From the IMG/VR virus record IMGVR_UViG_3300027741_000289, positions 1-22,535 of that record: a stretch of 22,535 bases of DNA, one strand, 5' to 3'. A program made the translations under genes and the position numbers. Shown here piece after piece: positions 2,132 through 17,534 of this stretch. Within the stretch, counting starts at the first letter, position 1. Each line of letters opens with the position of its first letter. The stretch is from a virus. A model generated the notes under the pieces. That model was not told where the DNA came from. It ran no database searches and saw nothing but the letters and a program-made list of their open reading frames with translations.

Positions 2132-4426
2132 TTAAATTACGCAACTGTCACAGTCGGCGTCATCAGACACGACCGCAGGTTCTGCTTCTACCAGTTTGCT
2201 GACATCTATTTCGCCTTGTTGGTCATTGGTCTGGAAATAGTACAACTGTTTCAAACCCAGTCGATAGCACAGCAACAGGTGTTGCAACATCTCACTCATG
2301 GGAATCTTTTCGTCTGTGTAGAAGCGTGGATTGTAGGAAGTATTTACACTTATGCCTTGATCAATGTATTTTTGTAGCACTGCACACAGTTTCAAATAAC
2401 CTTCGGGCGATTTCTGATCCCATAACAGTTCATACTTGTTTTTTAGACGACGGTATTCAGGAACAACTTGTCTTAAAGCACCATCTTTGCTTTGTTTGAC
2501 ACTGACAAAACTGCGCGGCGGCTCAATGCCGTTGGTGGCATTACTAATCTGTGCCGAAGTCTCTGCTGGCATCAAAGCCATGAGTGTGGCATTGCGTTGA
2601 CCTGTGCGTTGTACCTGAGCACGTAGTTCGGCCCAGGGCATACGCTCAACATAAGGAACCAATTCATCTACTTCGGGCTTGCGTGTGTCAATGGGCAATA
2701 TGCCTTGGGCTGACTTGAGATCTTGCCAACGACCACAGGCTCCTTGTTCAACTGCTAGGTCTGCTGATGCCTTGATCAAGTAATATGACCAGGCTTCGGC
2801 GTATTCATCTACCAAGGCCAAGGCACGTGGATCACTGTAGCTGACGTCGTGTTTGGCCAAGAAGTAGGCAAAGTTGATGATGCCCACGCCCAAGGGTCGA
2901 AACTCTTCGGTGGCCAACCGGGCTGCCAACACTGGATAGTTCTGATAACTCAACAGGGCATCCAACCCGCGCACTGCCAGACGGCACATACGTTCAAAGT
3001 CTCGGGGTTCTCGGACATTGCCCCAGTTGGTTGCACTCAAGGTACACAAGGCAATACGTCCGTCAGGATCGTTGACATCTTTGAGTGGCACAGTTGGCAA
3101 GTCAATTTCTGCACAAAGGTTTGACATCTTGATAGGTGCAACCATCTCATCAAATGGACTGTGTGTGTTGGCATGGTCTACATTTTGTAAGTAGATACGT
3201 CCTGTGTCTTTGCGTTCCTGCATAAAGCGGCTGAATAGGTCTGCGGCTTTGAATGTTTTCTTACGCAGTTTGGTATTGCGTTCTGCACGTTCGTATAACT
3301 CTTTGAAACGCTCTTGGTTGTTGTAGAAGGCCTCGTACATTTCAGGCACATCGTGGGGACTAAAACAGGTGATATCGCCTCCTGTGATCAGTCTTTCGTA
3401 CATTAACTTGTTGAATTGGACACCGTAATCCATGTGACGTACACGATTATCCTCTGTGCCCTTGTTGTTCTTTAGTACCAAGAGATCTTCAACTTCCAGG
3501 TGCCAAACAGGATAGTACAGGGTAGCGGCGCCATTACGCACACCACCTTGGCTACAACTGCGTGTGGCAGTTTGGAAGTATTTGTAGAATGGCACTACAC
3601 CGGTATGATAGGCATCGCCATTGCGAATAGGGCTACCCAGGGCACGTATGCGGCCTGCACCAATGCCGATACCGGCCTTTTGACTCACATATTTTACTAT
3701 TGAGCTGGCAGTAGCGTTAATGGAATCAAGACTGTCATCAGACTCAATAAGAACACAACTGCTGAATTGTTTTTGCGGTGTTCGTACACCAGCCATAATA
3801 GGGGTAGGTAAAGAGATATCGTGATTGCTGATAGCGTCATAGTAATCCTTGATCCACTGTAGTCTAGTTTCTTGTGGGTAATGTTGGAACAGGGTCGCAG
3901 AGATCAACATGTATGCAATCTGCGGTGTTTCAAATATCTCATTGGTCACACGATTCTGTACCAGGTACTTGCCGCGCCACTGTTCCATGGCCACATAGGT
4001 AAAGTTTTCATCACGCTCGTGTTTGATGTAGGTGTTTAATGTGTTCCACTCATCCACAGAGTAGGCGGCGAGAAGGCCTGCATCATAAAATCCAGACTCC
4101 ACATTCTTCTTGACCAGATCTAGCAAGGGCCAAGGAGCATAATTGTTGTAGACTTGTTTGCGTAGATGATAGTTGATCAGACGACCTGCTACATATTGAT
4201 AGTTGGGTGTTTCTTCTGAGATTAGATCTGCGGCACTCTTGATCAGGGTTTCTTGAATGTCTGAGGTTCTGATGCCGTTGTAAAATTGTATGTGACTTTT
4301 TATTTCTACTTCACTGGCACTAACACCTGTGATTCCTTCGGTTGCCCAGAACACCACACGATGCAGTTTCTCCAGGTCCAGTGTTTCTTTCTCGTTATTT
4401 CTTTTTGTTACTTGTATAGTTGTCAT
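2132..4426 (-). CDS. nrdA: Class Ia ribonucleoside-diphosphate reductase, alpha (catalytic) subunit
   Basis: A 764-residue protein, full length for class Ia NrdA. Residues 1-90 form an ATP-cone allosteric domain (VTKRN...IHRVV-like start). The catalytic cysteines are C224 (FSSCVLIESDDSLDSIN), thiyl-radical C438 in SNLCAEIDLPT with N436 and E440, and C461 in ALCTLSA. The radical-transfer tyrosine pair sits in LKQLYYFQTND near the C terminus. The tail ends DCDSCVI, a shuttle cysteine pair spaced CxxC, whereas the E. coli pair has four residues between. It is strikingly similar to enterobacterial NrdA throughout. GAAGAGG before the ATG at 4426 is a strong ribosome binding site that overlaps the stop region of the upstream gene. 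It acts with NrdB and Grx to make dNDPs. Confidence 0.97.
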   Translation of the reverse strand: MTTIQVTKRNNEKETLDLEKLHRVVFWATEGITGVSASEVEIKSHIQFYNGIRTSDIQETLIKSAADLISEETPNYQYVAGRLINYHLRKQVYNNYAPWPLLDLVKKNVESGFYDAGLLAAYSVDEWNTLNTYIKHERDENFTYVAMEQWRGKYLVQNRVTNEIFETPQIAYMLISATLFQHYPQETRLQWIKDYYDAISNHDISLPTPIMAGVRTPQKQFSSCVLIESDDSLDSINATASSIVKYVSQKAGIGIGAGRIRALGSPIRNGDAYHTGVVPFYKYFQTATRSCSQGGVRNGAATLYYPVWHLEVEDLLVLKNNKGTEDNRVRHMDYGVQFNKLMYERLITGGDITCFSPHDVPEMYEAFYNNQERFKELYERAERNTKLRKKTFKAADLFSRFMQERKDTGRIYLQNVDHANTHSPFDEMVAPIKMSNLCAEIDLPTVPLKDVNDPDGRIALCTLSATNWGNVREPRDFERMCRLAVRGLDALLSYQNYPVLAARLATEEFRPLGVGIINFAYFLAKHDVSYSDPRALALVDEYAEAWSYYLIKASADLAVEQGACGRWQDLKSAQGILPIDTRKPEVDELVPYVERMPWAELRAQVQRTGQRNATLMALMPAETSAQISNATNGIEPPRSFVSVKQSKDGALRQVVPEYRRLKNKYELLWDQKSPEGYLKLCAVLQKYIDQGISVNTSYNPRFYTDEKIPMSEMLQHLLLCYRLGLKQLYYFQTNDQQGEIDVSKLVEAEPAVVSDDADCDSCVI

Positions 4427-4892: not shown

Positions 4893-6605
4893 TTATGTTC
4901 TAATAAAACTGATTTTGTAGGTTAATGTAGTACTCTCACCAGCAGTGTATTCAATATCACCTGTGGTGCTGTTGGCCTGTAGTGCAAAATCCATGCCGTC
5001 ACTTTGATTGTATTCATCGTCCCAGGTATACGAACCCAAGAAATTGTTTACATGTAGTACGCCATTGCGTACCGCACCAGTTTGTTGTACCGAGTAAGTG
5101 ACAGTGAAGTTTGTGGTAATACCATAATCTAGATACTGAACCCCCACACTGGTCATTGACATGGCGGCATCCAATGCCGTTGTAACAGCACTGCGTTCTG
5201 TTGATAGACCGTTGGTGATACCGTTTCTGTCTGCACCCACTACCACACAATCATGACCGTTGGTTTCCACATTAGGAACTCCATGGTCGGTGGTAAGATA
5301 GTTATCAAATACATCACCCATGCTGTAGTGACCATTGGACAAGAATTCAATGGCCGGAACTAATGGGCCATCACCGGCTCTATAGCCATAGGCTGCACCA
5401 GCAAACGAATTTGATGAGGTGGTCACATTTTTAGCTGATTCGCCAACTATGATAGATTGTGCACCGCTGTATCTAAAATAATTGCCCACGATGCTGACGC
5501 CGTAAGTGACATAGTTTCCATCTATCTGGAATTGAGGAGCATCAACTCCAAGATTGATATGATGGTAACATTGATCAAAGTAACTGCTGGTAATTTCAAG
5601 ATTGCGGATTTCACCCACAGTTTGAATACCATAGTTCATGCGTGTGATTTCACAGTCGTGTATTCTAACATCGCGAACAGCTTTGTAGTCGGACCATCCA
5701 GTCAACAGCACAGCGCCCATGCCAACGTCTACGCCAGGATCCGTACGATTGGTATAATAGTTGTCTGTTCCTGACCCATCATCATTGTAGTCAATTAGGT
5801 CGCCTTGAAACAAACAGTTGGACAACACAATGGTTGTTCCGCCATCGGCCTGGAACACTGGTTGATCATAGGTGTCGGCTGTCTGATAGAATCCAATATC
5901 GCTCACATGATATTCGAGACTGTAAGGTCTAACACCATTTACACGAGCACCATAATATTGACCTGATTGCCCAAATTGATCAACGACCAAAATCATGGCG
6001 CCGGTGTCGGTTAGATAAGTTGATGTCAATTCATTGCCGGTGTCGTACACTGTGTTTTTGCGAGGAATATTTCTAGCAATAATTGTACTAGATGTTTTAC
6101 CTTCACCTTGAATACGTGTAAACGGAGGAAGTTTGATAGTATCTGTAATAAGGTAAGTGCCGGCCGGGAAGTAAATTGTTCTATGTGTGATACTGCTGCC
6201 ACCTGCACTGGCTGTGCCTAAGGGCCGATCAAGAGCACGTTGTATGGCCGCGGTATCATCAGCAACTCCATCACCTACCGCACCAAAGTCACGTACACTA
6301 ACAAAGTCATCTAGTTTGTCTTGTAAGGTACGAATAATGGGATTGTTGGCGTCTGGTCCAGTTAAAACTTGGAAACCGGCCAACAAGCCTTTGAATGTGT
6401 AATTGCGACCCAGTGACAGCACATCACTGTATTCTGTAAGAATCTCTGTGACACCTGTGGTAGGTGCGCCTTCTTCTACGGTACCATTGCCGATAAACAA
6501 TCGTCGTTTGTCAACACTCCAACCCAGCTCTGCACTGGCCAATTGCGGAAAGTTTTCTTGAAGTCCTCGACGATGCTGTATTCTCGAGATTTGCACTACT
6601 GCCAT
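4893..6605 (-). CDS. Tail spike / tail fibre with pectate-lyase-type beta-helix
   Basis: A 570-residue virion protein. Residues 1-60 form a short N-terminal module (QHRRGLQENFPQLASAELGW, then RRLFIGNGT) of the kind found at the start of several T4-like tail proteins, probably for virion attachment. Residues 101-180 match the pectate-lyase-3 entry: VRDFGAVGDGVADDTAAIQ, then TIYFPAGTYLIT and RIQGEG. Repeated beta-helix rungs follow to about residue 430, then a beta-rich C-terminal domain. Such proteins bind and often cleave host surface polysaccharide. The catalytic site cannot be read from sequence alone, so enzyme activity is inference. The ATG at 6605 has GGAAC upstream, and a late-like promoter lies in the 30-base gap before it. 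Confidence 0.88.
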   Translation of the reverse strand: MAVVQISRIQHRRGLQENFPQLASAELGWSVDKRRLFIGNGTVEEGAPTTGVTEILTEYSDVLSLGRNYTFKGLLAGFQVLTGPDANNPIIRTLQDKLDDFVSVRDFGAVGDGVADDTAAIQRALDRPLGTASAGGSSITHRTIYFPAGTYLITDTIKLPPFTRIQGEGKTSSTIIARNIPRKNTVYDTGNELTSTYLTDTGAMILVVDQFGQSGQYYGARVNGVRPYSLEYHVSDIGFYQTADTYDQPVFQADGGTTIVLSNCLFQGDLIDYNDDGSGTDNYYTNRTDPGVDVGMGAVLLTGWSDYKAVRDVRIHDCEITRMNYGIQTVGEIRNLEITSSYFDQCYHHINLGVDAPQFQIDGNYVTYGVSIVGNYFRYSGAQSIIVGESAKNVTTSSNSFAGAAYGYRAGDGPLVPAIEFLSNGHYSMGDVFDNYLTTDHGVPNVETNGHDCVVVGADRNGITNGLSTERSAVTTALDAAMSMTSVGVQYLDYGITTNFTVTYSVQQTGAVRNGVLHVNNFLGSYTWDDEYNQSDGMDFALQANSTTGDIEYTAGESTTLTYKISFIRT

Positions 6606-6614
6606 AATTCGTTC

Positions 6615-6639
6615 CTAAATACTTGTATTGTGTATTTAG
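6615..6639. repeat. Inverted repeat in the nuclease/tail-spike gap
   Basis: CTAAATAC at 6615-6622 and GTATTTAG at 6632-6639 are perfect 8-base inverted arms around a 9-base loop. There is no U-run, so it is not a standard terminator. Each arm contains a TAAATA core like the late promoters elsewhere in the window. Confidence 0.6.
6632..6639 (-). promoter_or_regulatory. Possible late promoter for the tail spike gene
   Basis: On the minus strand this reads CTAAATAC, which contains the TAAATA core of the T4-type late promoter. It lies 27 bases before the tail-spike ATG at 6605 and overlaps the stop codon of the nuclease gene. Spacing would give a short leader of about 20 bases that includes the GGAAC ribosome binding site. 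Confidence 0.45.
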
Positions 6640-7334
6640 TTCATCCTGTAATACTGCTCTACTCGTTTCATCCATTCTGTGTGCCAGTAGGCAAATTCAT
6701 CAGGACCCAGTTCAAACTCTAGGTATTGCGGCGTTTCTGATTGGTCTCGGGGTTTGACACACATGAGAATAACACCCGTGTTAATGTCAGTTCCGTGGGT
6801 TTCGTTGTGTGCTGCCGCATAGGCTGCCAACTGTATAAAGTAATCACCAATGTATTCGCGCTTCTTGACCTTGTTACTCTGCTTGAAGTCCATGATAGCG
6901 GGCCGACCTTTCCATACTCCCACAAGATCTGTGGTACCAGCATATAATCCACTATAATACAGGGGAACTTCTGAACCCCAGTATTCGTTGGCATGACACA
7001 AGCCTTTGAGTATGACTTCAGCAGCCATGAACCACGAGGGCTGTGCAAACGGATTTGAGGGGAAATCGCCAATGTCATCTTCTTTGACATAACGTTCCAA
7101 GTAGGTGTGCATACGTGTGCCACGATTGGCAGCTTCTGTAACAATCTGTTGTGCCCGATCTTCGCCCACTGCCCGACGCCAATTGGCCAGAGCTTGACGG
7201 CTTTCTTCGCTTTTGGTACGATCTAGGATAGTGGTAACGCTGGGAACTTTGCTACCATCTGGTAATGCATAGTGGCGTTTACCTTCAACACTTTCTCTTG
7301 CAAGAGGCGTGTAATCATATTTTTTGATAATCAT
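6636..7334 (-). CDS. RecB/Cas4-like PD-(D/E)XK nuclease
   Basis: A 232-residue single-domain nuclease. The RecB-family motifs appear in order: G72-T-x-x-H76, E122, D136 (YAGTTDLVG), D149-F-K151 (IMDFKQS) and Q168-x-x-x-Y172. These residues bind two metal ions and cut DNA, so an exonuclease or DNA-end-processing role in replication or recombination is likely. Cas4 and AddB relatives hold an Fe-S cluster with four cysteines, but here only two cysteines are present (in GLCHAN and LMCVKP), so a cluster is unlikely although iscA and iscU lie directly upstream. The ATG at 7334 shares one base with the iscA stop (TAATG), which implies coupled translation. The exact substrate is unknown. Confidence 0.87.
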   Translation of the reverse strand: MIIKKYDYTPLARESVEGKRHYALPDGSKVPSVTTILDRTKSEESRQALANWRRAVGEDRAQQIVTEAANRGTRMHTYLERYVKEDDIGDFPSNPFAQPSWFMAAEVILKGLCHANEYWGSEVPLYYSGLYAGTTDLVGVWKGRPAIMDFKQSNKVKKREYIGDYFIQLAAYAAAHNETHGTDINTGVILMCVKPRDQSETPQYLEFELGPDEFAYWHTEWMKRVEQYYRMN

Positions 7335-7657
7335 TAAACTCTAAAACTTTCTCCGCAACCACATCGGTCGCGTTCGTTGGGGTTACGAAATTCAAAGCCT
7401 TCATTTAGGCCTTGTCGCACATAATCTACTGTCATATTTTGTAGGTAAACGTTATCTTTGGCATTGACCAAGACTACAAAATCAGGCTGTGCATAATTGA
7501 TCACATACTGTTCTGGCGTGTACTCTCGTACATATTCTAACACATAAGCCAGTCCTGAGCAACCTGTAGTTTTTACACCAAGTCGTATACCGGCATGGCC
7601 CGTGGCATCCAATAGTTTTTTTATTTTTGTTCGTGCCGCATCAGTTAATGAGATCAT
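7334..7657 (-). CDS. iscA: A-type Fe-S cluster carrier (IscA/ErpA/HesB family)
   Basis: A 107-residue protein of normal A-type carrier length. It has the three cysteines that bind iron or a cluster: C33 in TTGCSGLAYV, and C99 and C101 in CGCGESF at the C terminus. A-type carriers receive clusters from a scaffold such as IscU and deliver them to client proteins. The start overlaps the end of iscU by 17 bases and the stop overlaps the nuclease ATG by one base, so the three are probably translated together. ErpA and SufA share these motifs, so the subfamily is uncertain; the iscU neighbour favours an IscA role. No cysteine desulfurase, HscA/HscB or ferredoxin gene is in the window, so sulfur must come from the host. 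Confidence 0.94.
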   Translation of the reverse strand: MISLTDAARTKIKKLLDATGHAGIRLGVKTTGCSGLAYVLEYVREYTPEQYVINYAQPDFVVLVNAKDNVYLQNMTVDYVRQGLNEGFEFRNPNERDRCGCGESFRV

Positions 7658-8030
7658 GCTTTTTGCGATAGTCGGCTACTGCGGCTTTGATGGCGTCTTC
7701 GGCGAGGATACTGCAATGTATTTTAACAGGTGGAAGAGCCAACTCCTCGGCGATGTCGCTGTTTTTAATACTTGAAGCCTGGTCCAACGACATTCCTTTG
7801 ACCAGCTCTGTGATGAGCGAGGAGGAAGCGATTGCAGATCCGCATCCATATGTTTTGAAACGAGCATCTCTAATAATACCATGTTCATCTACCTTTATCT
7901 GTAATTTCATCACGTCACCACAAGCTGGTGCGCCGACCATGCCGGTGCCCACATCAGCATCGTTGGCGTCAAATTTGCCCACGTTGCGTGGATTCTCATA
8001 ATGGTCAATTACTTTATTTGAATATGCCAT
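7641..8030 (-). CDS. iscU: Fe-S cluster assembly scaffold IscU
   Basis: A 129-residue protein almost collinear with E. coli IscU from the first residue (MAYSNKVIDHYENPRNVG). All cluster ligands are present with the same numbering: C37 and D39 in APACGD, C63 in YGCGSA, H105 and C106 in KIHCS. The LPPVK motif recognised by the chaperone HscA is intact at residues 99-103. IscU builds 2Fe-2S clusters with sulfur from IscS and hands them on. The intact partner motifs suggest this copy works with host IscS and HscA/HscB. The ATG shares one base with the stop of a 43-residue ORF upstream. Such close similarity to a bacterial housekeeping gene points to capture from a host, with function kept. Confidence 0.97.
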   Translation of the reverse strand: MAYSNKVIDHYENPRNVGKFDANDADVGTGMVGAPACGDVMKLQIKVDEHGIIRDARFKTYGCGSAIASSSLITELVKGMSLDQASSIKNSDIAEELALPPVKIHCSILAEDAIKAAVADYRKKHDLIN

Positions 8031-8161
8031 TATCTTATGTCTTCGGTGTGTTTGTGTTTGGCGGATTTACGAAGAATCTTGAACCAAATCTTTTTTTCTT
8101 TTGCACTATCGTGTGCAAAGATGGCTCTGTATAGTTTGTGTCTTAGTTGTTGTAGTTTCAT
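8030..8161 (-). CDS. Small basic protein, 43 residues, upstream of iscU
   Basis: A short open frame beginning MKLQQLRHKLYRAIFAHD and ending KHKHTEDIR, rich in Lys, Arg and His, probably a single amphipathic helix with a basic tail. Its ATG overlaps the stop of the secreted-protein gene (ATGA, bases 8158-8161), and its TAA shares one base with the iscU ATG (TAATG). Exact start and stop coupling on both sides is the same layout seen between certain genes in this phage and is the main reason to call it real. I do not recognise a family. It could be a small IscU partner or a coupling peptide; function is unknown. Confidence 0.68.
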   Translation of the reverse strand: MKLQQLRHKLYRAIFAHDSAKEKKIWFKILRKSAKHKHTEDIR

Positions 8162-8478
8162 TGTGAGCAGGTCCTTGTTCTAGTAATAGTGCCATCAGAG
8201 TTTTGTACTTCGGTCCAGGAGGTGCAGTTTTGTGTTTGCCCATAGTACACAGTGGCAGGAGGCACAGGAGCGGGTTGTACGATCACCGGTTGTTGTACGA
8301 TCACCGGAGGTTGGTTACGTGCTATTTCATAGCCAATCACACCACCAATGATGGTGGGGGCTACCCAACCGTAATTGTATCCTGGATAGTATCCATGATG
8401 GTGATGATACCTGAAGCCTGGTTGAGCCAATGCACAAGTGCTGACCAATATCAATGTTAACGCTAGGATTTTTTTCAT
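8158..8478 (-). CDS. Secreted His-rich, Pro-rich small protein
   Basis: A 106-residue protein with a clear signal peptide: MKK, a hydrophobic core to about residue 14, and a likely signal-peptidase I site after ALA18. The mature part has an HHHH-rich segment at residues 25-28, a Tyr/Gly/Pro stretch, a short Gly-rich hydrophobic segment (APTIIGGVIGYEIA) and a duplicated PVIVQ unit. The C-terminal end (NCTSWTEV...TRTCSQ) has two cysteines that could form a disulfide. V-S-T-C15 resembles a lipobox but has Thr at the last position, so a lipoprotein is less likely. An AAAGGAGA ribosome binding site sits 7 bases before the ATG. It probably acts in the host periplasm; metal binding by the histidines is inference. 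Function is unknown. Confidence 0.8.
   Translation of the reverse strand: MKKILALTLILVSTCALAQPGFRYHHHHGYYPGYNYGWVAPTIIGGVIGYEIARNQPPVIVQQPVIVQPAPVPPATVYYGQTQNCTSWTEVQNSDGTITRTRTCSQ
8274..8307. repeat. Direct repeat inside the secreted-protein gene
   Basis: Two perfect 16-base copies of GTTGTACGATCACCGG occur at 8274-8289 and 8292-8307, offset by 18 bases. The offset keeps the frame and encodes the doubled PVIVQ unit, so it looks like a recent six-codon tandem duplication. Confidence 0.85.
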
Positions 8479-8555: not shown

Positions 8556-8566
8556 TTGTACAGGAA

Positions 8567-8977
8567 TTAACTACGATTTGCAAGAGCCGATTTAGCCATT
8601 GCGCCCACGGTCTTTTCTGGTGGGGTTCTGGGTGCGTTCATGTCTCCAGGCACAGCCGAAAAATCATCTTCGGCATTGCTCTGTAGATAAACATATTTGG
8701 TTCCATTGTCATCATCACTGATGTCTTTGACAAAGTTTTTGACGGTGTCATTGGTTTTGAATGCGTCCAATAGAGCTTCAAGATTAAAGGCTTCAGAACC
8801 AGGAATGCCTTGTACCATGTTGATCAAGGCATCTACACGAATCTTTGGCACCAGGTGTTGGTTACCTGCACGACCTTTTAGGAACTCCAAGGCCGAAATA
8901 AGATTGGCGTCGCCGCGATCAACCGCTTCGTCCTCAATCATCTCAGCATGAAAGTCTGAGAATTCGCGTAGTCTCAT
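8567..8977 (-). CDS. Phage protein of unknown function, probable head/prohead component
   Basis: A 136-residue acidic, mostly helical protein beginning MRLREFSDFHAE, with a Pro/Ala-rich tail after residue 110. Its N terminus shares a pattern with several neighbours (M, Arg/Lys, Leu/Ile, x, Glu, hydrophobic) and looks like the capsid-targeting peptides of T4 internal proteins. The ATG shares one base with the stop of the preceding gene (TAATG), and GAGAGCG upstream can act as a ribosome binding site. That preceding gene has a strong late promoter, so the pair are probably late structural or assembly proteins. I recognise no domain of known function. Confidence 0.72.
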   Translation of the reverse strand: MRLREFSDFHAEMIEDEAVDRGDANLISALEFLKGRAGNQHLVPKIRVDALINMVQGIPGSEAFNLEALLDAFKTNDTVKNFVKDISDDDNGTKYVYLQSNAEDDFSAVPGDMNAPRTPPEKTVGAMAKSALANRS

Positions 8978-9687
8978 TAGCGACGCTCTCTGCCCAGTGC
9001 CTCTGGGCCGCCTGCGGCAGCATCAGTGGCAGCAAACTCGTCACCAGCATCGAGGTCGCTAACCGGAGGCACACCACCAGGAACTTCGCCTGCGGCCATA
9101 CCAGCCATTTCGTCTCCGCCTAGGCTGCTGCCCATTCCCATGTCCATGGGCTGTGCAACTTGTTCACCAGCCAATGCACGACTTGCTGTGTCGGCTGTTT
9201 CTCTGGCAGCACCCAGTTGTGCAGACAGATCAGTGATCATGGGAGTCATTGCTGTTTTGAATTGTTCAGCTTGTTGGGCGCCAATTTGGTCACGGATGCT
9301 GTCCAACAGGGCCGGCATTTGCTCGCTTTGTAGTTTGCTGATTTTTTCTAACATGTCTTGGACACTGTCAACAATGTTCTTGGCAGCCAGGATGGCTTCT
9401 GATTTGGCCATTTCGCTTTCAGTAACAAACTGTTGCTGATTTTCACGCATCCAGCTGTGTATGCTTTCGCGTACCATCAGCATTTCCATGTAGGTAGAGT
9501 TTTTCTCTACGGCGCCGGCGCCGTGGCTACGACGAACTTGGTCAATGCTTTCGCTTAGACCACTGGCTAGTCGGTAGGCTTTTTTAAACGTCAGTTTATC
9601 AAAGTCAATGGCATAACCAAAGCGACTTTCGACCACTTGGTTTAGTTTTTTTGCGGAAGGCTTGGTGCCCATTTCTTGTAGTCTCAT
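8977..9687 (-). CDS. Prohead core/scaffold-type structural protein of T4-like phages (putative)
   Basis: A 236-residue protein. Residues 1-80 (MRLQEMGTKPSAKKLNQVVE, later YMEMLMVRESIHSW) are helical and conserved in appearance with uncharacterised structural proteins of T4-like marine phages. Residues 95-175 form a long coiled-coil-like stretch (SVQDMLEKISKLQSEQMPAL). The tail is rich in Gly, Ala, Met and Asp and is probably disordered. Long helices, an acidic disordered tail and a short MRLQEM N terminus fit a prohead core component, but sequence alone does not prove this. Its start overlaps the end of the 9684-10232 gene by 4 bases (ATGA). A perfect TATAAATA late promoter lies 35 bases before the ATG, inside the upstream gene. 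Confidence 0.7.
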   Translation of the reverse strand: MRLQEMGTKPSAKKLNQVVESRFGYAIDFDKLTFKKAYRLASGLSESIDQVRRSHGAGAVEKNSTYMEMLMVRESIHSWMRENQQQFVTESEMAKSEAILAAKNIVDSVQDMLEKISKLQSEQMPALLDSIRDQIGAQQAEQFKTAMTPMITDLSAQLGAARETADTASRALAGEQVAQPMDMGMGSSLGGDEMAGMAAGEVPGGVPPVSDLDAGDEFAATDAAAGGPEALGRERR

Positions 9688-10232
9688 AGTAGTCTTTCCT
9701 GAACTTTCAAATATTTAGCAGTATTTATAGTTTTTTCTAATTCTTGATTTGCATAATCCAGTTGATATCGAGCATTTATGTAGCGCATATTGGCTAGATC
9801 TGCACGAAAATAGTCTTGCTTTTTTAGACTGGTGCGGCGAGTATTGGCATAGGTATCTTGATCTAGCTCCAATCTGCTGACTTCTGCATCAGCTGTCAGT
9901 ATGTTTCTAGCTAGATTCAGTCGGTTGTCCTGTAGGGCCAAACAATAAAATATCGCACTCAGCTTACGACCAAAATCATGAACCAATTCATCATTGCGAT
10001 CCAATACACGCCAACAGTGCTTGCCCACACTCAATACCTTGTAATAACCAATTAAAAACCCGCGGTTGCCCAGGGGCAAACACACGGGTAAGTTTTCGTC
10101 TATGGTTAATCTTTTTAGTTCTGTTTCGGTCCAGTATTTTACGTATTGCGTGATTACATCTGCGGCAAGATCAATGCGTTGATCTGCCAGCGTTTTTTTA
10201 TTTCTTTTTGTAGGTGATTCGGCCTGTTTCAT
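9684..10232 (-). CDS. Conserved phage protein of unknown function
   Basis: A 182-residue soluble protein. Residues 1-20 are basic (SPTKRNKKT). Residues 25-100 look like an alpha/beta core with the phrase LPLGNRGFLIGYYKVLSVGK, and the C-terminal 80 residues are a helical, possibly coiled-coil region rich in Leu, Asn, Arg and Tyr. Its start lies 35 bases inside the preceding small gene, with no good ribosome binding site, so translation is likely coupled. Its last four bases overlap the next gene (ATGA). The neighbours are late assembly genes, which makes a role in virion assembly the simplest guess. Function is unknown. Confidence 0.68.
   Translation of the reverse strand: MKQAESPTKRNKKTLADQRIDLAADVITQYVKYWTETELKRLTIDENLPVCLPLGNRGFLIGYYKVLSVGKHCWRVLDRNDELVHDFGRKLSAIFYCLALQDNRLNLARNILTADAEVSRLELDQDTYANTRRTSLKKQDYFRADLANMRYINARYQLDYANQELEKTINTAKYLKVQERLL
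9722..9729 (-). promoter_or_regulatory. T4-type late promoter (perfect TATAAATA)
   Basis: The minus strand reads TATAAATACTGC, identical to the T4 late promoter core. It lies 35 bases upstream of the ATG at 9687, within the 3' end of the upstream gene. A second TAAATA follows at 9711-9716. Confidence 0.7.
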
Positions 10233-10401
10233 TTATTCTGTATAGTATGTCTTTGTTTACCAGGTGATTTGCAATCATTTGTTCTCTGGGTGACAAATCT
10301 TGTTTTTGTACTTCTGAGTGATGTTCGAATATGCCCAATACGTCTGCTTCTTCATTGGTGATTGGCACACTAATTTTATTTACTAGTTCTACAATTTTCA
10401 T
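10198..10401 (-). CDS. Small conserved phage protein of unknown function
   Basis: A 67-residue protein beginning MKIVELVNKISVPITNEEAD and ending ETGRITYKKK. Between them is a helical phrase, LSPREQMIANHLVNKDILYR, with the size and pattern of a small winged-helix or helix-turn-helix unit; this is suggestive only. The start (MKIVEL) fits the N-terminal pattern shared by several genes here. Its ATG follows the stop of the membrane-protein gene by 2 bases, in an A-rich context without a ribosome binding site. It overlaps the next gene by 35 bases. A DNA-binding or structural role cannot be separated from sequence. Confidence 0.68.
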   Translation of the reverse strand: MKIVELVNKISVPITNEEADVLGIFEHHSEVQKQDLSPREQMIANHLVNKDILYRINETGRITYKKK

Positions 10402-10403
10402 TT

Positions 10404-10661
10404 TTATTTGTTTATGAAGTTGACCAAGATCACAATGATACCTGTGGTCAATGCGCCAACCAAGGCTGTGCCTATGGTGATTATGGTTTTGTTTGCTGAT
10501 TCAGGAGCACCGGACAAGCTCTCTCTAATGAACATGAGATGTTCTTCCAGTTTACCAACCTTGTGTTCAAGATTGTTCAATTTATTTTCTAGATTGGTGT
10601 AGCGTAGAGCACACAGCTCCACGTGTGTTTCCAAACTTTCTTTTTCAATTTCGGCGGCCAT
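10404..10661 (-). CDS. XhlA-like small membrane protein (coiled coil plus one TM helix)
   Basis: An 85-residue protein. Residues 10-50 are a heptad-rich coiled coil (LENKLNNLEHKVGKLEEHL). Residues 59-82 form one transmembrane helix (TIITIGTALVGALTTGIIVI), followed by a short basic end. This layout matches the haemolysin XhlA-type proteins of phages, some of which work with holins in lysis. It could equally be a tail or ejection component, since no endolysin or second holin gene is in the window. AAGGA lies 8 bases before the ATG at 10661, and a late-like TAAATA element lies about 40 bases upstream. The start is firm because an upstream ATG is out of frame. Confidence 0.72.
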   Translation of the reverse strand: MAAEIEKESLETHVELCALRYTNLENKLNNLEHKVGKLEEHLMFIRESLSGAPESANKTIITIGTALVGALTTGIIVILVNFINK

Positions 10662-10699
10662 GGCTCATATCCTTGTTAGTTGTGATATCTGATATAGTG

Positions 10700-10707
10700 T
10701 ATTTAAC
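10700..10707 (-). promoter_or_regulatory. Possible late promoter for the XhlA-like gene
   Basis: The minus strand reads GTTAAATACAC, sharing TTAAATA with the late element, 38 bases before the ATG at 10661. It lies in the 79-base gap after the 10741-11172 gene. Confidence 0.45.
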
Positions 10708-10740
10708 AATGAGCCATGACAAGTGAAGATTAGGTAGATA

Positions 10741-11172
10741 TCAATTACTATTTAAGTCAATGCGGCCTAATCTAAAAAACACGTTTTTAATAGCACCTTT
10801 GGTATAGAATATGGGTAATATGAATCGGGCTGTTTCTTCAAGACCCATGATGATCGGCACTTCGTCAAAATCTTGTTCCAGGTAGTGCAAGACCTTTTCG
10901 TCCTTGAGCCAGACATCGGAATGTTCTGTACTGAAAGACCAGAACCATACTCGATGCACACCCGAATACATTTCTCCAAAGTCGCTGCCTTCTAGGTCAA
11001 CATCTTGATATATGGGGCCAATCATGTCCAACGGCTGAGCACGTATACCAATGCATTGTAGTACTGTTTCCCAATTACGTTGTTGGTCACGTGCCTGATC
11101 ACCATCGCCCCTGGTTCTGGTCACGCCTGTTTGTGTGATGTCCACTAGAGTAATGCCGGTGATGTGTTGCAT
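10741..11172 (-). CDS. Conserved phage protein of unknown function
   Basis: A 143-residue protein starting MQHITGITLVDITQTGVTR. It continues NWETVLQCIGIRAQP and has an aromatic middle (RVWFWSFSTEHSDVW) and a C-terminal end FRLGRIDLN. It resembles uncharacterised proteins I associate with T4-like phages. I chose the ATG at 11172, because a frame extending to 11226 would run through the terminator hairpin and the promoter. A perfect TATAAATA ends 5 bases before this ATG, so transcription should start at or very near the start codon and the message would be leaderless. No ribosome binding site is seen. Expression late in infection, and hence a virion or assembly role, is inferred from the promoter. 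Confidence 0.72.
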   Translation of the reverse strand: MQHITGITLVDITQTGVTRTRGDGDQARDQQRNWETVLQCIGIRAQPLDMIGPIYQDVDLEGSDFGEMYSGVHRVWFWSFSTEHSDVWLKDEKVLHYLEQDFDEVPIIMGLEETARFILPIFYTKGAIKNVFFRLGRIDLNSN

Positions 11173-11177
11173 ACAGA

Positions 11178-11185
11178 TATTTATA
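11178..11185 (-). promoter_or_regulatory. T4-type late promoter (perfect TATAAATA) with leaderless geometry
   Basis: The minus strand reads TATAAATATCTGT and then ATG. In T4 late promoters transcription starts about 6 bases after this element, which here is the A of the ATG at 11172. It follows directly after the terminator of the upstream gene, so it starts a separate transcription unit. Confidence 0.75.
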
Positions 11186-11190
11186 GTCGT

Positions 11191-11215
11191 AAAAAAAGGC
11201 ACTAAAAAGTGCCTT
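11191..11215 (-). terminator. Rho-independent terminator after the 11234-11644 gene
   Basis: On the minus strand, AAGGCACT at 11215-11208 pairs perfectly with AGTGCCTT at 11203-11196 around a TTTT loop. It is followed by five further T residues, seven counting the stem end. It lies 19 bases after the stop codon and is the clearest terminator in the window. Confidence 0.92.
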
Positions 11216-11233
11216 CTTTGGATCAAGTAGCTA

Positions 11234-11644
11234 TTAGGCTAGTTTGATACCACCTGTGCTACTGACCACTGCGGCTGTTGCATCAACTGCACTGTATGCA
11301 CCAATGTTAGAACTCAGCAAGCGGATGGCTGCTTGTAAAGTAGCGGCTGTGTCTGAACTGCGTTCTGTGATAACGCTCAACTGACTGCCTGTATCAACTT
11401 GATATGCTATAACTGTTGCATTTGCCGCAACAACGTTCAACAATGTTTCAACTGCACCAGAAACGCCAGAACCGTTTGGTCCGCCAAGTTCTGCTGCCAA
11501 GTTACCGCCTGTAGCGGTGATCTTGAATGCTTGGATTGGGGCCGCAATGCCTGTGTTGATGATGGTTGCGTTTGAAAAGTGACGACCTGCGCCAATGTTA
11601 AATACACCACCGGTGTTGCCGTTTGCTCTTTGGAATACTGCCAT
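11234..11644 (-). CDS. Small abundant virion protein candidate
   Basis: A 136-residue protein with very low charge, rich in Ala, Gly, Thr, Val and Ser (MAVFQRANGNTGGVFNIGAG, then many short beta/loop and Ala-rich segments), with no cysteine. This composition is typical of capsid decoration or other surface proteins of virions. It stands as its own transcription unit: a GATAAATA late element, a strong AGGAGA ribosome binding site 6 bases before the ATG, and a strong terminator just after the stop. That combination suggests high, independent late expression. No known domain can be named, so the structural role is inference from composition and expression signals. Confidence 0.75.
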   Translation of the reverse strand: MAVFQRANGNTGGVFNIGAGRHFSNATIINTGIAAPIQAFKITATGGNLAAELGGPNGSGVSGAVETLLNVVAANATVIAYQVDTGSQLSVITERSSDTAATLQAAIRLLSSNIGAYSAVDATAAVVSSTGGIKLA

Positions 11645-11683
11645 TTTATTTCTCCTGTAATGGTTGCGTAATACGCATGCAAA

Positions 11684-11691
11684 TATTTATC
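11684..11691 (-). promoter_or_regulatory. Late promoter for the 11234-11644 gene
   Basis: The minus strand reads GATAAATATTTG, a 7 of 8 match to TATAAATA. It lies 40 bases before the ATG at 11644, in the 66-base gap after the ligase-like gene. Confidence 0.6.
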
Positions 11692-11710
11692 ATCTGCAAC
11701 AAAAACCAGC

Positions 11711-12847
11711 TCAATTAGGTGTCCAACGATGTCTAGGTACCAGTTTGGTATCTCGATATACCCAACCCTCGCCGCCAGGAACACCTTCAGTTGAGGTACG
11801 TATCTGCGGTGTTTGTTGATCCAATTGATCAATGATGTCGTTCTTGATATCTCTAATGGATTCAACTAAGCCAAATACCGCCTTCAAACCATCGGGGTTG
11901 GTTTCTATTTTGTCCACAAAGGCCTGCATCTTTTTAGGGCCCAGTGTGGTCTGTACCCAAGGTAAAAACTGCGATTCAAGACCTTCCAAGTTGCCTTCTT
12001 TGCTCTTGGTGTTAACAAACGCATAGATATCACTGCCGGGACTGGACAACCCGGGTACACCCGATAAAAATGCATCCACCGCTTTGCGTGTACGAGCCGA
12101 CAGTTTTAGTGACTTGACATAGTTGGCGTCAATCACTGCACCTTGATCTGCAAAGTAAGATCCCAGTATGACCAACTGTGAACTGGCAGAGGGATAGTAT
12201 AGTCCTTGACTGGTCCGGAATTGTTCTAACCGAGGCATCTTGCCTGCATCCTTGTCGCCAAAACGTTTTAGATATTTGTGTACTACCACTGCGGCTTTGG
12301 CTTTGTACAGCAGATTTCCCAGTTCAACGGGATTACCTTGATCATCGGCCACTGGTACCATATAGGTCACTTTGTTGGGAGTAAACACCAGCTCTTGACG
12401 TTTGACATCGTATGGTTTGCCTGGATAAAACAACATGTCACCAAAGAAATAACCACGAAAGTTTTCTGGAGTACCGGCTTCAAATATGTGCCAAGCAGAA
12501 GCCATGTCTGCGGCAAACTGTGCTCGCCAATCTTCACCCTTGCCACGACTCATGATAAACTGTTCTAGTTCGTCGGGACTGGTAGCAAAGCCGCCTTGAT
12601 CTGCTTTGTCCCAGTTGTTTTTGCCCACAAACACAAACTGACCGTTGGGCTCTCTGCCCCAGTACACCGTGGGGTTGCCGTCCCACTTTAGACTGTAGTC
12701 TTTGCCAGTGGCTTCTGTGGCCATGTGACGTAAGTATTCCAGCGCACGGTCTGCGCCTGCAGATCCTTCTGTGAACACAAGATCCTCTAGGTGATTAAAC
12801 TCGCGTCCAATCTTGGCAGCTTCTACTAGTAATTCTCTGGCTCTCAT
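11711..12847 (-). CDS. Ligase/nucleotidyltransferase-like protein with KxDG motif, possible capsid-targeted protein
   Basis: A 378-residue protein. LKWDGNPTVYWG places K54-x-D-G57 like motif I of covalent nucleotidyltransferases (DNA/RNA ligases, capping enzymes), where Lys carries AMP. YFFGDMLFY near residues 133-141 resembles motif III. E360-G-W-V-Y-R with K368 at the C terminus resembles motifs IV and V. The motif order is right, but I-to-IV spacing is longer than in small ligases. I chose the ATG at 12847, since it overlaps the upstream stop (ATGA). This start gives MRARELLVEAA, which looks like the T4 internal-protein targeting peptide with an LxE prohead-protease site. It is adjacent to and coupled with a polymerase-beta-type nucleotidyltransferase. 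Enzymatic activity is inferred from motifs only. Confidence 0.68.
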   Translation of the reverse strand: MRARELLVEAAKIGREFNHLEDLVFTEGSAGADRALEYLRHMATEATGKDYSLKWDGNPTVYWGREPNGQFVFVGKNNWDKADQGGFATSPDELEQFIMSRGKGEDWRAQFAADMASAWHIFEAGTPENFRGYFFGDMLFYPGKPYDVKRQELVFTPNKVTYMVPVADDQGNPVELGNLLYKAKAAVVVHKYLKRFGDKDAGKMPRLEQFRTSQGLYYPSASSQLVILGSYFADQGAVIDANYVKSLKLSARTRKAVDAFLSGVPGLSSPGSDIYAFVNTKSKEGNLEGLESQFLPWVQTTLGPKKMQAFVDKIETNPDGLKAVFGLVESIRDIKNDIIDQLDQQTPQIRTSTEGVPGGEGWVYRDTKLVPRHRWTPN

Positions 12848-13626
12848 CGAAACATCTCGCTGATCTGTCGCAGCCATTGTGTGCTGCCGGGCTGTACACT
12901 TTCGGGCAGTGTCAGCAGGCCCTTGGCCTGATCATCACGTGCCTGTGCCAATTTGGCATCACGGTTGGGATCGTTAGCTAGACTGGCCATGATTGTTTTT
13001 ACACTGTTCAAGTCGTCGGCATTGGCCTGTGGATTCAAAAGTATTTTGGCCACAGCATCTCTCTCACGGGCGACCACCGTGTTGTCTTCACGACTTATCA
13101 GTTTGGCACCAAATGCATCAAACTTCAAGTTCAATGATTTGGCAATACTGCTGATCAACAAGAATATGGGAGAACCTCGAAAGTCCGGATCTGCATACAT
13201 GCCTCTGGGACCGTGTTGATGATAGGGTGCAACAATGTGTACATCGTGTATGACCATTAGGTCAACCTGTGCATAACCACCATCTGTGACTTTGCTGGCA
13301 TAAGGAACACCAATGCTGACATTGCGTCCGTTGACATTGGCTTCAATATTTTTGGCAGCAAAGAACTGCGCCAAGGCCTGTTTGGCGGCCTTGACTGGAT
13401 CCTTTGCGTCTTGGGTTTTGAACAAAGTCACAACATCTTCAGCTTCAACCATTAGATCAATATCGCCTGACTCTACCTTGTAGCCTGCTGAACCGATATC
13501 AGTCTGCATACGTTTTAACAAGGCAGGCGGTGCCAGTCGTTGAGCAATAGCAACCACTGCAGGCACATCTTCTTTGGCTACAGGGCGACTTGTGGGTATG
13601 GCGTTGCCGCCTTCTAATAGTATCAT
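12844..13626 (-). CDS. Polymerase-beta-superfamily nucleotidyltransferase
   Basis: A 260-residue protein with the nucleotidyltransferase signature: G45-S46 in TDIGSAGYK, D55-x-D57 in SGDIDLMVEAE, and a third acidic residue D122 in YAQVDLMV. These acidic residues bind the metals for nucleotide transfer in tRNA nucleotidyltransferases, MNT-type enzymes and polymerase beta. The C-terminal half is helical and ends LRQISEMFR. I chose the ATG at 13626 (MILLEGGNAIPTSR) because it overlaps the upstream stop as ATGA; a longer frame from 13653 would add nine residues inside the previous gene. It overlaps the ligase-like gene the same way. The substrate is unknown; a nucleic-acid end or a protein are both possible. 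Confidence 0.75.
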   Translation of the reverse strand: MILLEGGNAIPTSRPVAKEDVPAVVAIAQRLAPPALLKRMQTDIGSAGYKVESGDIDLMVEAEDVVTLFKTQDAKDPVKAAKQALAQFFAAKNIEANVNGRNVSIGVPYASKVTDGGYAQVDLMVIHDVHIVAPYHQHGPRGMYADPDFRGSPIFLLISSIAKSLNLKFDAFGAKLISREDNTVVARERDAVAKILLNPQANADDLNSVKTIMASLANDPNRDAKLAQARDDQAKGLLTLPESVQPGSTQWLRQISEMFR

Positions 13627-15095
13627 CTTCTTCGGGATTTCATTTTGCGCCACAACACTTCGCCAAGGTCAATACTGTCTTCAAGTTGACTTACTGGCTG
13701 ATTTAGAAATGAAGGTTCTGCTTGAGCCGCGGCACGTCTCCGTGCAACTTCTCTGCGCCCAACATATTGAGAACTCTTTGGATCATCCCACCCTAGAGCC
13801 GTGTTTGTAGCAGGTGTAGAATACGAGCTTGGCGGAATAACTCTTCCTGGTGCCTGATATGAACCGTTTCCTGCAGCCATGGTACCTGTTGCATTGCCAG
13901 TAGCTGACATATTTGTAGGTGCTGTTGGTGCTATTGGTATTGGCGCTGTCGGGGTCGGTGCTGTCGGTGCTGTAGCCTCCGGTGGCGGCATATTGAGTGT
14001 AGGATCAAATCTTGGGTCATTTCTTCTACGCATTACCGACGGTGTGTCTGTGGTAGTAATAGGTGTGGTTTGTCTTTGTGCAAGAACATCTGCGGCCGGT
14101 GCCGAGTTTGTAGTATCTATGTTAGTGGGTGCCGCGGGCAGTATGGCATCGGTGTTTCTATATGATTGTATTGCTTGATCAGATTGTCGTTGTGTTGGAG
14201 CAGGTGCTGGTGGTTGAGTTTGTGGTGCAGGTGCCGGTGGTTGTACGTGTATCTCAGAATTTAAATAAGCATCATGTTGTTTGTTCAAAAAGGCCTGCAT
14301 AGCCTGGCTTTCTGGTCTTTTGGGATTCTTGACTGGTGCCCAAATACCGTTATCGTTCAATGCATAGTCGGTATTTTTGAAGTTGATTATGATTGGTTCT
14401 TCGCTGGTTATGGATACCCCAGACGATAATCTTGGTCCAGCGTTTCGGCCGGCGCTGGTGTTGAATCCTTGTAAAAGTTTGGCATTCTCCCGTGTGTATC
14501 TGCCCATAGTCGTATAAAACACGGTTTGCATTTTTTCGTTAGCCGGTGTACCGGCTTCGTCTACCCATTTTCCTGATGCATCATCAATGCTGTAATTTTT
14601 ACCAGAAAAAGTCAATGTTGGATCTGCATTTGGATTAGAGGCGCCGCCGGTGATGGTCAGCCCTGGTACGTCAGTTTTGATTGGTTCTTTGGTTGGCTGT
14701 GCCCGTAAACTGGCTGACGCTCTGTCGGTCCAATTGTCGGCATCCGGTGCGTCTCTCATGGCAGCTGCCAGGCTCTGTCCGGTGACCGTGGTAATATATT
14801 CATTAACACCCTTTGGTGTCATGTCAGTTGGTGCAGGAACATCTGGAATATTTGGTGCGGCCTTTTGTACAAACTGTTGCAGAGCAGATGGGTTTTTTTG
14901 TAAAGTGGGATCCATGGCCACTGATTGATTCCATTTACCAATAAGATTATCGGCCACACTATTTCTAGTGGCTCGACCCTGTGCCTTTTGACCGACCAGT
15001 GGTGCATTGGCTTTGATGGTATTGATTCCGGATCTTAACGAGTCCATTACACCTTCGTCTAGTTTGTGTTGATTGTCAATTTCTTTAATCTTCAT
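13623..15095 (-). CDS. Pro/Ala/Thr-rich phage protein, probable virion or internal head protein
   Basis: A 490-residue protein. Residues 1-60 are helical, beginning MKIKEIDNQHKLDEG, which has IxE and LxE sites of the T4 prohead-protease type. Residues 90-280 hold folded-looking segments, including two similar units (LTFSGKNYSIDDASGKWVDE and INFKNTDYALNDNGIWAPV). Residues 285-420 are a low-complexity Pro/Ala/Thr linker. The end is basic (LGEVLWRKMKSRRR). I chose the ATG at 15095, which has AGAAAGA upstream and overlaps the preceding gene by 11 bases; the frame to 15134 adds 13 residues without support. The stop overlaps the nucleotidyltransferase start (ATGA). The function is unknown. Confidence 0.72.
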   Translation of the reverse strand: MKIKEIDNQHKLDEGVMDSLRSGINTIKANAPLVGQKAQGRATRNSVADNLIGKWNQSVAMDPTLQKNPSALQQFVQKAAPNIPDVPAPTDMTPKGVNEYITTVTGQSLAAAMRDAPDADNWTDRASASLRAQPTKEPIKTDVPGLTITGGASNPNADPTLTFSGKNYSIDDASGKWVDEAGTPANEKMQTVFYTTMGRYTRENAKLLQGFNTSAGRNAGPRLSSGVSITSEEPIIINFKNTDYALNDNGIWAPVKNPKRPESQAMQAFLNKQHDAYLNSEIHVQPPAPAPQTQPPAPAPTQRQSDQAIQSYRNTDAILPAAPTNIDTTNSAPAADVLAQRQTTPITTTDTPSVMRRRNDPRFDPTLNMPPPEATAPTAPTPTAPIPIAPTAPTNMSATGNATGTMAAGNGSYQAPGRVIPPSSYSTPATNTALGWDDPKSSQYVGRREVARRRAAAQAEPSFLNQPVSQLEDSIDLGEVLWRKMKSRRR

Positions 15096-15345
15096 TGCGT
15101 ATCTTTCTGACCCCACGGGTAAATTTGGCGGCATCTTGACTGCGTATGCTGTTGAGTAGTCTACGTTCTAACTCGGCGGCCTGTTCGGCATCGTAGTTTT
15201 CACGTATGTAGTTGACCAGATTAATGGCACCTTGGATCACATGGTTGGCACGACTTTCCACAAGATTTTGTTTGTCTCTATGGGTCAACAGGCTGTCCAG
15301 TTCGTCCAAGATACTACGGGTACGCTTTTGCAAGATAGGCTCCAA
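15085..15345 (-). CDS. Small helical conserved phage protein (TTG start)
   Basis: An 86-residue, fully helical, charged protein with the phrase RANHVIQGAINLVNYIRENY and the ending FTRGVRKIRNED. It has no methionine codon in frame. A TAG stop lies three codons before the TTG at 15345, so the start must be this TTG or a later TTG such as 15333. No strong ribosome binding site precedes it. It lies 10 bases after the helicase stop and overlaps the next gene by 11 bases. I associate the sequence with uncharacterised T4-like phage proteins; function unknown. Confidence 0.68.
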   Translation of the reverse strand: MEPILQKRTRSILDELDSLLTHRDKQNLVESRANHVIQGAINLVNYIRENYDAEQAAELERRLLNSIRSQDAAKFTRGVRKIRNED

Positions 15346-15352
15346 TATAGTC

Positions 15353-15360
15353 TATTTATT
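15353..15360 (-). promoter_or_regulatory. Possible late promoter at the end of the helicase gene
   Basis: The minus strand reads AATAAATAGAC, matching the late element at 7 of 8 positions and overlapping the helicase stop. The predicted transcription start would fall within one or two bases of the TTG at 15345. Confidence 0.45.
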
Positions 15361-16795: not shown

Positions 16796-17532
16796 TTTGT
16801 TAGATATTTAATAATATTGTTGGCTAAATTTTGGTGAGTCGCAGGCCCTGGATGTATGTTATCTGTGCCTAGATCTACTGCACTGTCCATGATAGTCGAG
16901 AACATGTTGATCCATTTTGACTTGTCTAATTTTACAATTTCAGTCGATATTGCTTCAAAAAATTTCTTTATATCATCGTCGGGCAGTCGGTCAATGCACA
17001 AAAGATTTTTTGTATATTCGCTAAAGTAGCGTTGAGGATCTCTGGCAGATTCTGGATATCGCAGTTCGGGTGTCCACGGAATCAATCCGTTGATAAAAAT
17101 CAGACGGCATTTGTCCTTGGCTACATTTTCCAATATCTTGCAATAGTTTATTACTGACAAAATATTGTGATAGTCATGATTTAGATAACGAAACATGTCA
17201 ATGAATTCCTTTGCTTGCTGTTGCGGAAGGAAAAAATCCAAATACTTCAAATCATTACGTATACCAGCAGTGATTGGAAACTCCAAATCCAATGCTGGAT
17301 ATAACCAATGCCTACTCAATTCGGACCATTGAACAAACAGCACATCAGGTGTATCAAACAACAATTCATTCATTGATTCTATAAAAATTTTGCTGTTGGC
17401 ATTGCCGGGTACTGCGATATTCTTTAGTACAGCCGATTGCGAGTCAGCAACCAAACTGGCATAGTTTTCTTTGGTATCGTTTAATCCCTCACCATATGTG
17501 AGTGAGCAACCACTAAAGCAGAATCTTGTCAT
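16792..17532 (-). CDS. SGNH/GDSL-hydrolase-like protein
   Basis: A 246-residue protein with the blocks of the SGNH fold: block I FSGCSLTYGEG with candidate nucleophile S10, block II NIAVPGNANS with a conserved Gly and Asn, and block V D224-N-I-H227 for the Asp-His pair. Block III, usually GxND, is replaced by a VQWSE sequence, so activity may differ. SGNH enzymes are esterases or lipases, often acting on acylated sugars. Why one lies between primase and helicase is unclear. The gene starts 2 bases after the primase stop and ends in an ATGA overlap with the helicase. A sigma70-like promoter ends 5 bases before its ATG. Confidence 0.75.
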   Translation of the reverse strand: MTRFCFSGCSLTYGEGLNDTKENYASLVADSQSAVLKNIAVPGNANSKIFIESMNELLFDTPDVLFVQWSELSRHWLYPALDLEFPITAGIRNDLKYLDFFLPQQQAKEFIDMFRYLNHDYHNILSVINYCKILENVAKDKCRLIFINGLIPWTPELRYPESARDPQRYFSEYTKNLLCIDRLPDDDIKKFFEAISTEIVKLDKSKWINMFSTIMDSAVDLGTDNIHPGPATHQNLANNIIKYLTK

Positions 17533-17534
17533 AG

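Follow-up and report, generated by a model that had tools for sequence, protein, structure and literature searches.

IscU and A-type carrier genes have been described in marine environmental viral genomes, several of which are T4-like (Nishimura et al., 2017; PMC5332604). In that study, IscU was found in 6 genomes and an A-type gene in 14; these were scattered, and many close relatives lacked them. Radical SAM, cas4, grx and paaD genes were present in the same genomes, earlier virome reports were cited, and, according to the authors' proposal, the recipients include Fe-S proteins encoded by the viruses. iscU and erpA have also been reported in metagenomic genomes of HMO-2011-type phages (PMC9038755), a different phage group for which the passage concerned gives neither operon nor client evidence. 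Since phage iscU and A-type genes have been published, this kind of finding is already known. Bacterial isc operons have the order iscR-iscS-iscU-iscA-hscB-hscA-fdx, and PHROG 8429 groups NifU-like Fe-S cluster assembly proteins.

The locus studied here lies in a stretch of 22,535 bases (the window), which is the whole deposited IMG/VR record and a fragment of a larger phage genome. The window and its relatives share with the genomes of Nishimura et al. a phage IscU of gammaproteobacterial affinity, A-type carriers, and a T4-like setting with radical SAM and glutaredoxin genes. Unlike in those genomes, the pair is near-constant in one phage backbone and its genes are coupled to one another, several relatives have radical SAM genes within the operon, and SUF genes take its place in a sister lineage. 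Judging from the sequences, the apparent operon-level link to radical SAM genes and the SUF swap are what is new here.

The locus and its two proteins

The minus-strand transcription order is orf106, orf43, iscU, the A-type carrier gene, a PD-(D/E)XK exonuclease gene, the tail spike, orf149, nrdA, nrdB, glutaredoxin and a PAAR protein. The main features in the window are as follows.

8158..8478, minus strand: orf106, small protein whose N-terminus is hydrophobic, encoded upstream of the iscU/A-type pair; no family match
8030..8161, minus strand: orf43, small protein of 43 amino acids, joined to iscU by TAATG; no family match
7641..8030, minus strand: iscU, Fe-S scaffold, 129 amino acids; matches TIGR01999, NifU_N and PHROG 8429
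7334..7657, minus strand: A-type Fe-S carrier, IscA-like, 107 amino acids; matches Fe-S_biosyn, TIGR00049 and phrog_17776
6636..7334, minus strand: PD-(D/E)XK exonuclease; phrog_298 exonuclease 7e-54, PDDEXK_1 6.6e-5
4893-6605, minus strand: tail spike
2132..4426, minus strand: nrdA, backbone gene; phrog_84, 1041.7 bits
15356..16795, minus strand: gp41-like replicative helicase, backbone gene; phrog_19, 3.4e-69

The replicative helicase, a primase, a 2OG-Fe(II) oxygenase and structural families identify the contig as phage. NrdA is 82% identical in a 374 kb relative (G018/L031), and the best cultured match of the helicase is to Pseudomonas phage PA5oct (287 kb; 47.9%). A scan of viral contigs gave at least 600 IscU relatives, 80 of which were kept for analysis. 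Backbone relatives were also sampled by the helicase instead of IscU, yielding 21 records.

Positions 7334-8161 had been attributed in an earlier note on this sequence to IscU and IscA. Both genes are there, and the span also contains the 43-residue ORF at 8030-8161, which was not mentioned. The orf43/iscU and iscA/nuclease junctions are TAATG joints and iscU overlaps iscA by 17 nt, so that orf43, iscU, iscA and the nuclease gene look like a single coupled unit. The nuclease forms the downstream edge of a variable slot. Upstream, orf106 homologues are close to iscU in 28 of the 80 kept relatives. orf43 precedes iscU in L002, L003, L005, L032 and L037 with 67-86% identity and dN/dS of 0.07-0.18; it is conserved in six contigs (2693-2824 in L032) and appears to have been exchanged along with iscU-iscA. 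A Fe/Mn superoxide dismutase-like gene (Sod_Fe_C 1.5e-22) is located some 700 bases upstream of iscU in L045 (9268-9870) and about ten other loci.

Elsewhere in the window, the beginning of ORF246 (16792-17532, minus strand; no Pfam match) somewhat resembles an ORF of a radical SAM island (FSGCSLTYGEG, compared with VVSGCSFTHEP in G018:43300-44079). A QueC-like PP-loop protein is encoded at 19622-20311 on the plus strand (PF06508 25.6, cut-off 22; below the NCBIfam cut-off), which hints at 7-deazaguanine chemistry. The QueE step of the 7-deazaguanine pathway is carried out by a radical SAM enzyme. A tail-type protein built from repeats of VAIG-x-x-AG, with an unusually high cysteine content, occupies 20813-22535 on the minus strand and reaches past the contig end.

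IscU scores 222.4 bits against the TIGR01999 iscU model, above the curated cut-off of 192.4, and falls below the cut-offs of the SufU and NifU models. It also matches Pfam NifU_N (1.5e-53) and belongs to PHROG 8429 (1.1e-40). Over 126 residues it shares 82% identity with E. coli IscU, and its identity to beta- and gammaproteobacterial IscU is 79-85%; solved homologues include PDB 2l4x and 3lvl (E about 1e-66). As noted earlier, all the cluster ligands are present (C37, D39, C63, H105 and C106) and the LPPVK chaperone site is intact at residues 99-103. It has no cysteines besides 37, 63 and 106. The ligands and the LPPVK HscA site are intact in all 83 viral IscUs, and comparison of iscU with the five nearest phages gives dN/dS of 0.02-0.08.

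The A-type protein contains exactly three cysteines, and these are the ligands C33, C99 and C101 named in the earlier note. It matches Pfam Fe-S_biosyn (1.7e-17) and is 49% identical to E. coli IscA (1s98; E=3e-28). It passes TIGR00049 (95.4, cut-off 58.8) and misses the IscA equivalog model TIGR02011 (113.3, cut-off 150.6), yet the latter is its best-scoring A-type model. The original IscA label therefore holds for an A-type carrier nearest to IscA but not at the equivalog level, and we refer to the protein as an IscA-like A-type carrier. The cysteines are intact in 76 of 76 viral A-type proteins, and dN/dS of iscA is 0.04-0.20, with 0.04-0.13 in the comparison with the five nearest phages. 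Through its match to the window protein (1.9e-33), phrog_17776, for which no function is listed, looks like an A-type carrier family. Near iscU in L007, L015, L025, L036, L040, L080 and L081, two ORFs match the A-type carrier, mostly in tandem behind iscU.

Sulfur donor and candidate clients

No desulfurase, HscA/HscB or Fe-S client was identified among the main ORFs scanned in the window, in agreement with the earlier reading that IscS, the chaperones and an obvious client are missing here. The iscU-iscA order is shared with the bacterial operon; iscR, iscS, hscBA and fdx were not found beside the pair. Only 22.5 kb of this phage is in the record, so absence from the phage is judged on its relatives alone. 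The class V desulfurase family PF00266 is over its cut-off in one of 40 records (G021) and in none of the large relatives G007, G018, G023 and G038, whose records cover 262-374 kb (262, 266, 300 and 374 kb in order of size). Weak PF00266 matches in G007, G008 and G023 were rejected as sub-cut-off, two of them having an internal stop. The earlier note had held that an iscS gene elsewhere in the phage would count against it. No desulfurase exceeds the cut-off in the nearest large relatives, but a sister lineage does have SufS.

HSP70 is found in six of the 40 records (G003, G016, G021, G023, G030 and G033). Among the four large relatives it is absent from three, and that of G023 is DnaK-type. 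The single HSP70 scanned, from G021, is a DnaK (1001.6, cut-off 648) and lies below the HscA cut-off (605.9, cut-off 708.6); for this protein, HscA was rejected. Small heat-shock-like ORFs adjoin the HSP70 gene in L188 and L193. The proposal that the phage plugs into the host ISC machinery fits the absence of a desulfurase in the large relatives together with the retained ligands and HscA site.

Radical SAM enzymes each need a [4Fe-4S] cluster. Ten IscU-containing records of at least 80 kb hold 13, 12, 9, 12, 4, 4, 15, 6, 3 and 1 radical SAM domains, and 15 T4-like or jumbo phages without IscU hold 0-1 in 14 cases and six in the other. The density is 3.76 per 100 kb with IscU and 0.30 without (Mann-Whitney P = 1e-4 on counts), in a comparison that is phylogenetically non-independent because the IscU-containing records are mostly metagenomic and related to one another and the controls are cultured phages. 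Outside Vibrio phage K566, the matches in phages without IscU are ORFs of 156-168 amino acids, which would be the length expected of the NrdG activase. The CX3CX2C motif is kept in all 44 radical SAM ORFs examined (G017, G018, G023 and G028), and 24 of 35 ORFs scanned match a twitch-domain radical SAM model. At G018:40570-49497, G028:35921-72562 and G017:8337-25543, diverse radical SAM genes, up to 15 of them, form islands interspersed with other ORFs; some ORFs in these islands are SGNH-like by eye.

The slot itself contains radical SAM genes in several relatives. The order iscU-radical SAM-iscA-nuclease is present in G057, G058 and G059 (G059 has a pair of radical SAM genes), and G042 has iscU-radical SAM-iscA followed by two further ORFs ahead of the nuclease. 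L071, L074 and L049 have one radical SAM gene between iscU and iscA and a second one separating iscA from the nuclease gene. Matches to Pfam Radical_SAM in these operons reach E = 1e-13; the second gene of L049 was called from the CX3CX2C motif alone. Three distinct iscU-iscA gaps contain four radical SAM domains where 0.26 would be expected (P = 2e-4, a value that ignores clustering of such genes). This test used the helicase-sampled set, with G057 and G058 counted once and the group's own radical SAM density as the expectation. We consider the physical link suggested by these operons more telling than the frequency of radical SAM genes. The slot of the window is the bare form, iscU-iscA-nuclease, and no radical SAM gene is seen in its 22.5 kb. 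The radical SAM genes of G018, the nearest large relative, are distant from iscU, and iscU-iscA inserts other than radical SAM genes occur in L005, L032, L037, L048, L051 and L072. The phage C48C1 has IscU and just one radical SAM gene. K566 has six radical SAM matches without IscU, so the host supply alone can sustain such enzymes in a phage.

The presence of iscU and iscA beside radical SAM genes in several related phages suggests that the phage probably equips its own enzymes with host sulfur. In the explanation we favour as the probable one, host IscS provides the sulfur and the pair supplies clusters to radical SAM enzymes of the phage. Both the scaffold and the A-type carrier would be made from phage genes. 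IscU would receive sulfur from host IscS, and would assemble and release clusters using host HscA/HscB through the retained LPPVK site. The A-type carrier would then deliver clusters to acceptors, chiefly phage-encoded radical SAM enzymes. The activity of the proteins, host IscS as the donor, radical SAM enzymes as the recipients and the possession of such enzymes by the phage of the window are what we infer from these comparisons. Of the two roles offered in the earlier note, we prefer that of supporting a phage client elsewhere, since relatives hold radical SAM arrays, some within the iscU-iscA-nuclease operon; repair or redirection of the host supply has nothing positive of its own in support.

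Alternatively, the pair may raise or protect the total cluster synthesis of the host, with phage radical SAM enzymes as one beneficiary among several. Host respiration, dehydratases and other targets would be served as host proteins decay or host transcription stops. Viral IscU resembles a drop-in copy in this respect, being ~80-85% identical to bacterial IscU with its known partner sites kept, and some relatives carry stress-repair functions (SodB-like, DnaK and small-heat-shock-like genes). A general supply of this kind leaves unexplained why radical SAM genes sit between iscU and iscA and why they are more frequent, and we regard it as rather unlikely. It is improbable that the pair serves a single dedicated client other than radical SAM enzymes. 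A ferredoxin or the coupled nuclease could be such a client, given the ferredoxin-like ORF in G066 and the TAATG joint between iscA and the nuclease gene. However, the nuclease has just two cysteines (113 and 192), as the earlier note had counted, and was rejected as an Fe-S client for want of a four-Cys cluster site; it is also not seen adjoining iscU in the sister lineage.

Phage IscU could instead compete with host IscU and other acceptors for IscS, starving host pathways of sulfur or clusters. IscS has distinct sites for its several acceptors (PMC2854127), and the phage brings acceptors with no donor found. A pure decoy would need neither the ligands, the HscA site nor the carrier, and the retention of all of these under strong purifying selection argues against it. 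The sister lineage, moreover, adds the donor SufS and not acceptors alone. Such starvation of the host is thus very improbable.

Recurrence and possible exchange of the pair

An IscA-type gene is close to iscU in 74 of the 80 kept viral loci. The order orf106-iscU-iscA-nuclease is repeated in other assemblies (L002, L003 and L004), and L310 is 94.3% identical to the window over 8560-18499 and 85.8% over 7343-8030. When relatives were sampled by the helicase, iscU was present in 14 of 21 records and in 10 of the 11 that are at least 30 kb long. The earlier note had allowed for a bacterial-phage chimera created by assembly; the same arrangement in the independent assemblies L002, L003, L004 and L310 and the recurrence across the backbone rule this out.

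A tree was built from 83 viral and the 80 nearest bacterial IscUs (127 columns). Viral and bacterial labels change 4 times on it, compared with 54 in shuffles. The grouping of viral IscUs and the purifying selection indicate that iscU is an established phage gene, and the pair is not obviously a recent pick-up. The tree had been proposed as a way to identify the donor lineage, which cannot be named because branch support is poor (95 of 149 inner branches unresolved). That the pair represents recently captured host genes of little use to the phage, or a chimera, is scarcely credible: an identity as high as 79-85% to IscU of beta- and gammaproteobacteria would suit it, and the independent assemblies, the few label changes, dN/dS far below 1 and the near-constant iscU of the longer backbone records all oppose it. 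In L032 and L037, orf43, iscU and iscA are 86-89% identical to those of the window and NrdA is only 46-48% identical, a disparity suggesting that phages have exchanged the unit.

'Acinetobacter phage MD-2021a' was rejected as the best phage match, the region being a bacterial isc operon. Its contig CAKLQH020000011.1 consists of bacterial chromosome and carries a complete isc operon, and CAKLQF020000009.1 is alike.

SUF operons in a sister lineage

In the sister lineage, two kinds of operon contain SUF genes. The order SufC-SufD-SufS-IscU-IscA is found in G021 (246 kb), L315 and L316-L319. The order SufB-(Grx4)-SufC-SufD-SufS-SufE-SufT-SufA is found in the corresponding slot of L320 (G066) and L322 and, more divergently, of L323.

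L039:7308-10694: hybrid operon, SufC-SufD-SufS-IscU-IscA
L320:1973-7445 (IMGVR_UViG_3300008113_006810): complete-looking SUF operon on a phage-type contig, with Grx4 (L320 only)
L322:10016-15122: complete-looking SUF operon on a phage-type contig
L323:1289-6477: complete-looking SUF operon on a phage-type contig

In L320, SufB (845, cut-off 717) and SufC (278, cut-off 213) exceed their cut-offs, and SufD, SufS, SufE and SufT are all below theirs. A UvdE-like gene precedes the SUF operon and a giant tail gene follows it in L320 and L322. Homologues of the UvdE-like gene also border iscU-iscA in L029 and the hybrid operon in L039, and members of the sister lineage have iscU-iscA in the slot between UvdE-like and giant tail genes. 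In an alignment of the hybrid SufS proteins (L039 and L316-L319), the cysteine of L320 SufS is not present (GHLNARP vs GFLCAQP), at what we presume to be the catalytic position, and an N-terminal segment, around HRGIH, is also missing. The SufS of the hybrid operons is probably not a working desulfurase. Most viral-contig SufB matches (L324-L361) were set aside, as they may be bacterial or from other viruses. The SUF-bearing contig G066 also encodes a ferredoxin-like ORF at 6945-7268 (CIKCKFTDCVAVCPVDC). No report of a phage SUF operon was found in the literature searched, which was thin in subscription journals.

So far, lists of auxiliary metabolic genes have included phage iscU with no client that had been put to the test. 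Where a radical SAM gene separates iscU from iscA, the operon offers a concrete enzyme-scaffold pair, and radical SAM clients would account for the large arrays of such genes in these genomes. More tentatively, large phages may keep an exchangeable Fe-S slot for maturing viral radical SAM enzymes. Depending on the lineage, it would be filled by IscU and an A-type carrier with host IscS as the donor, by a self-contained SUF system or by mixtures of these, with carriers that prefer the viral enzymes over host clients. If the assemblies hold, the SUF operon in the corresponding slot would be a case of a virus encoding a whole cofactor-assembly machine.
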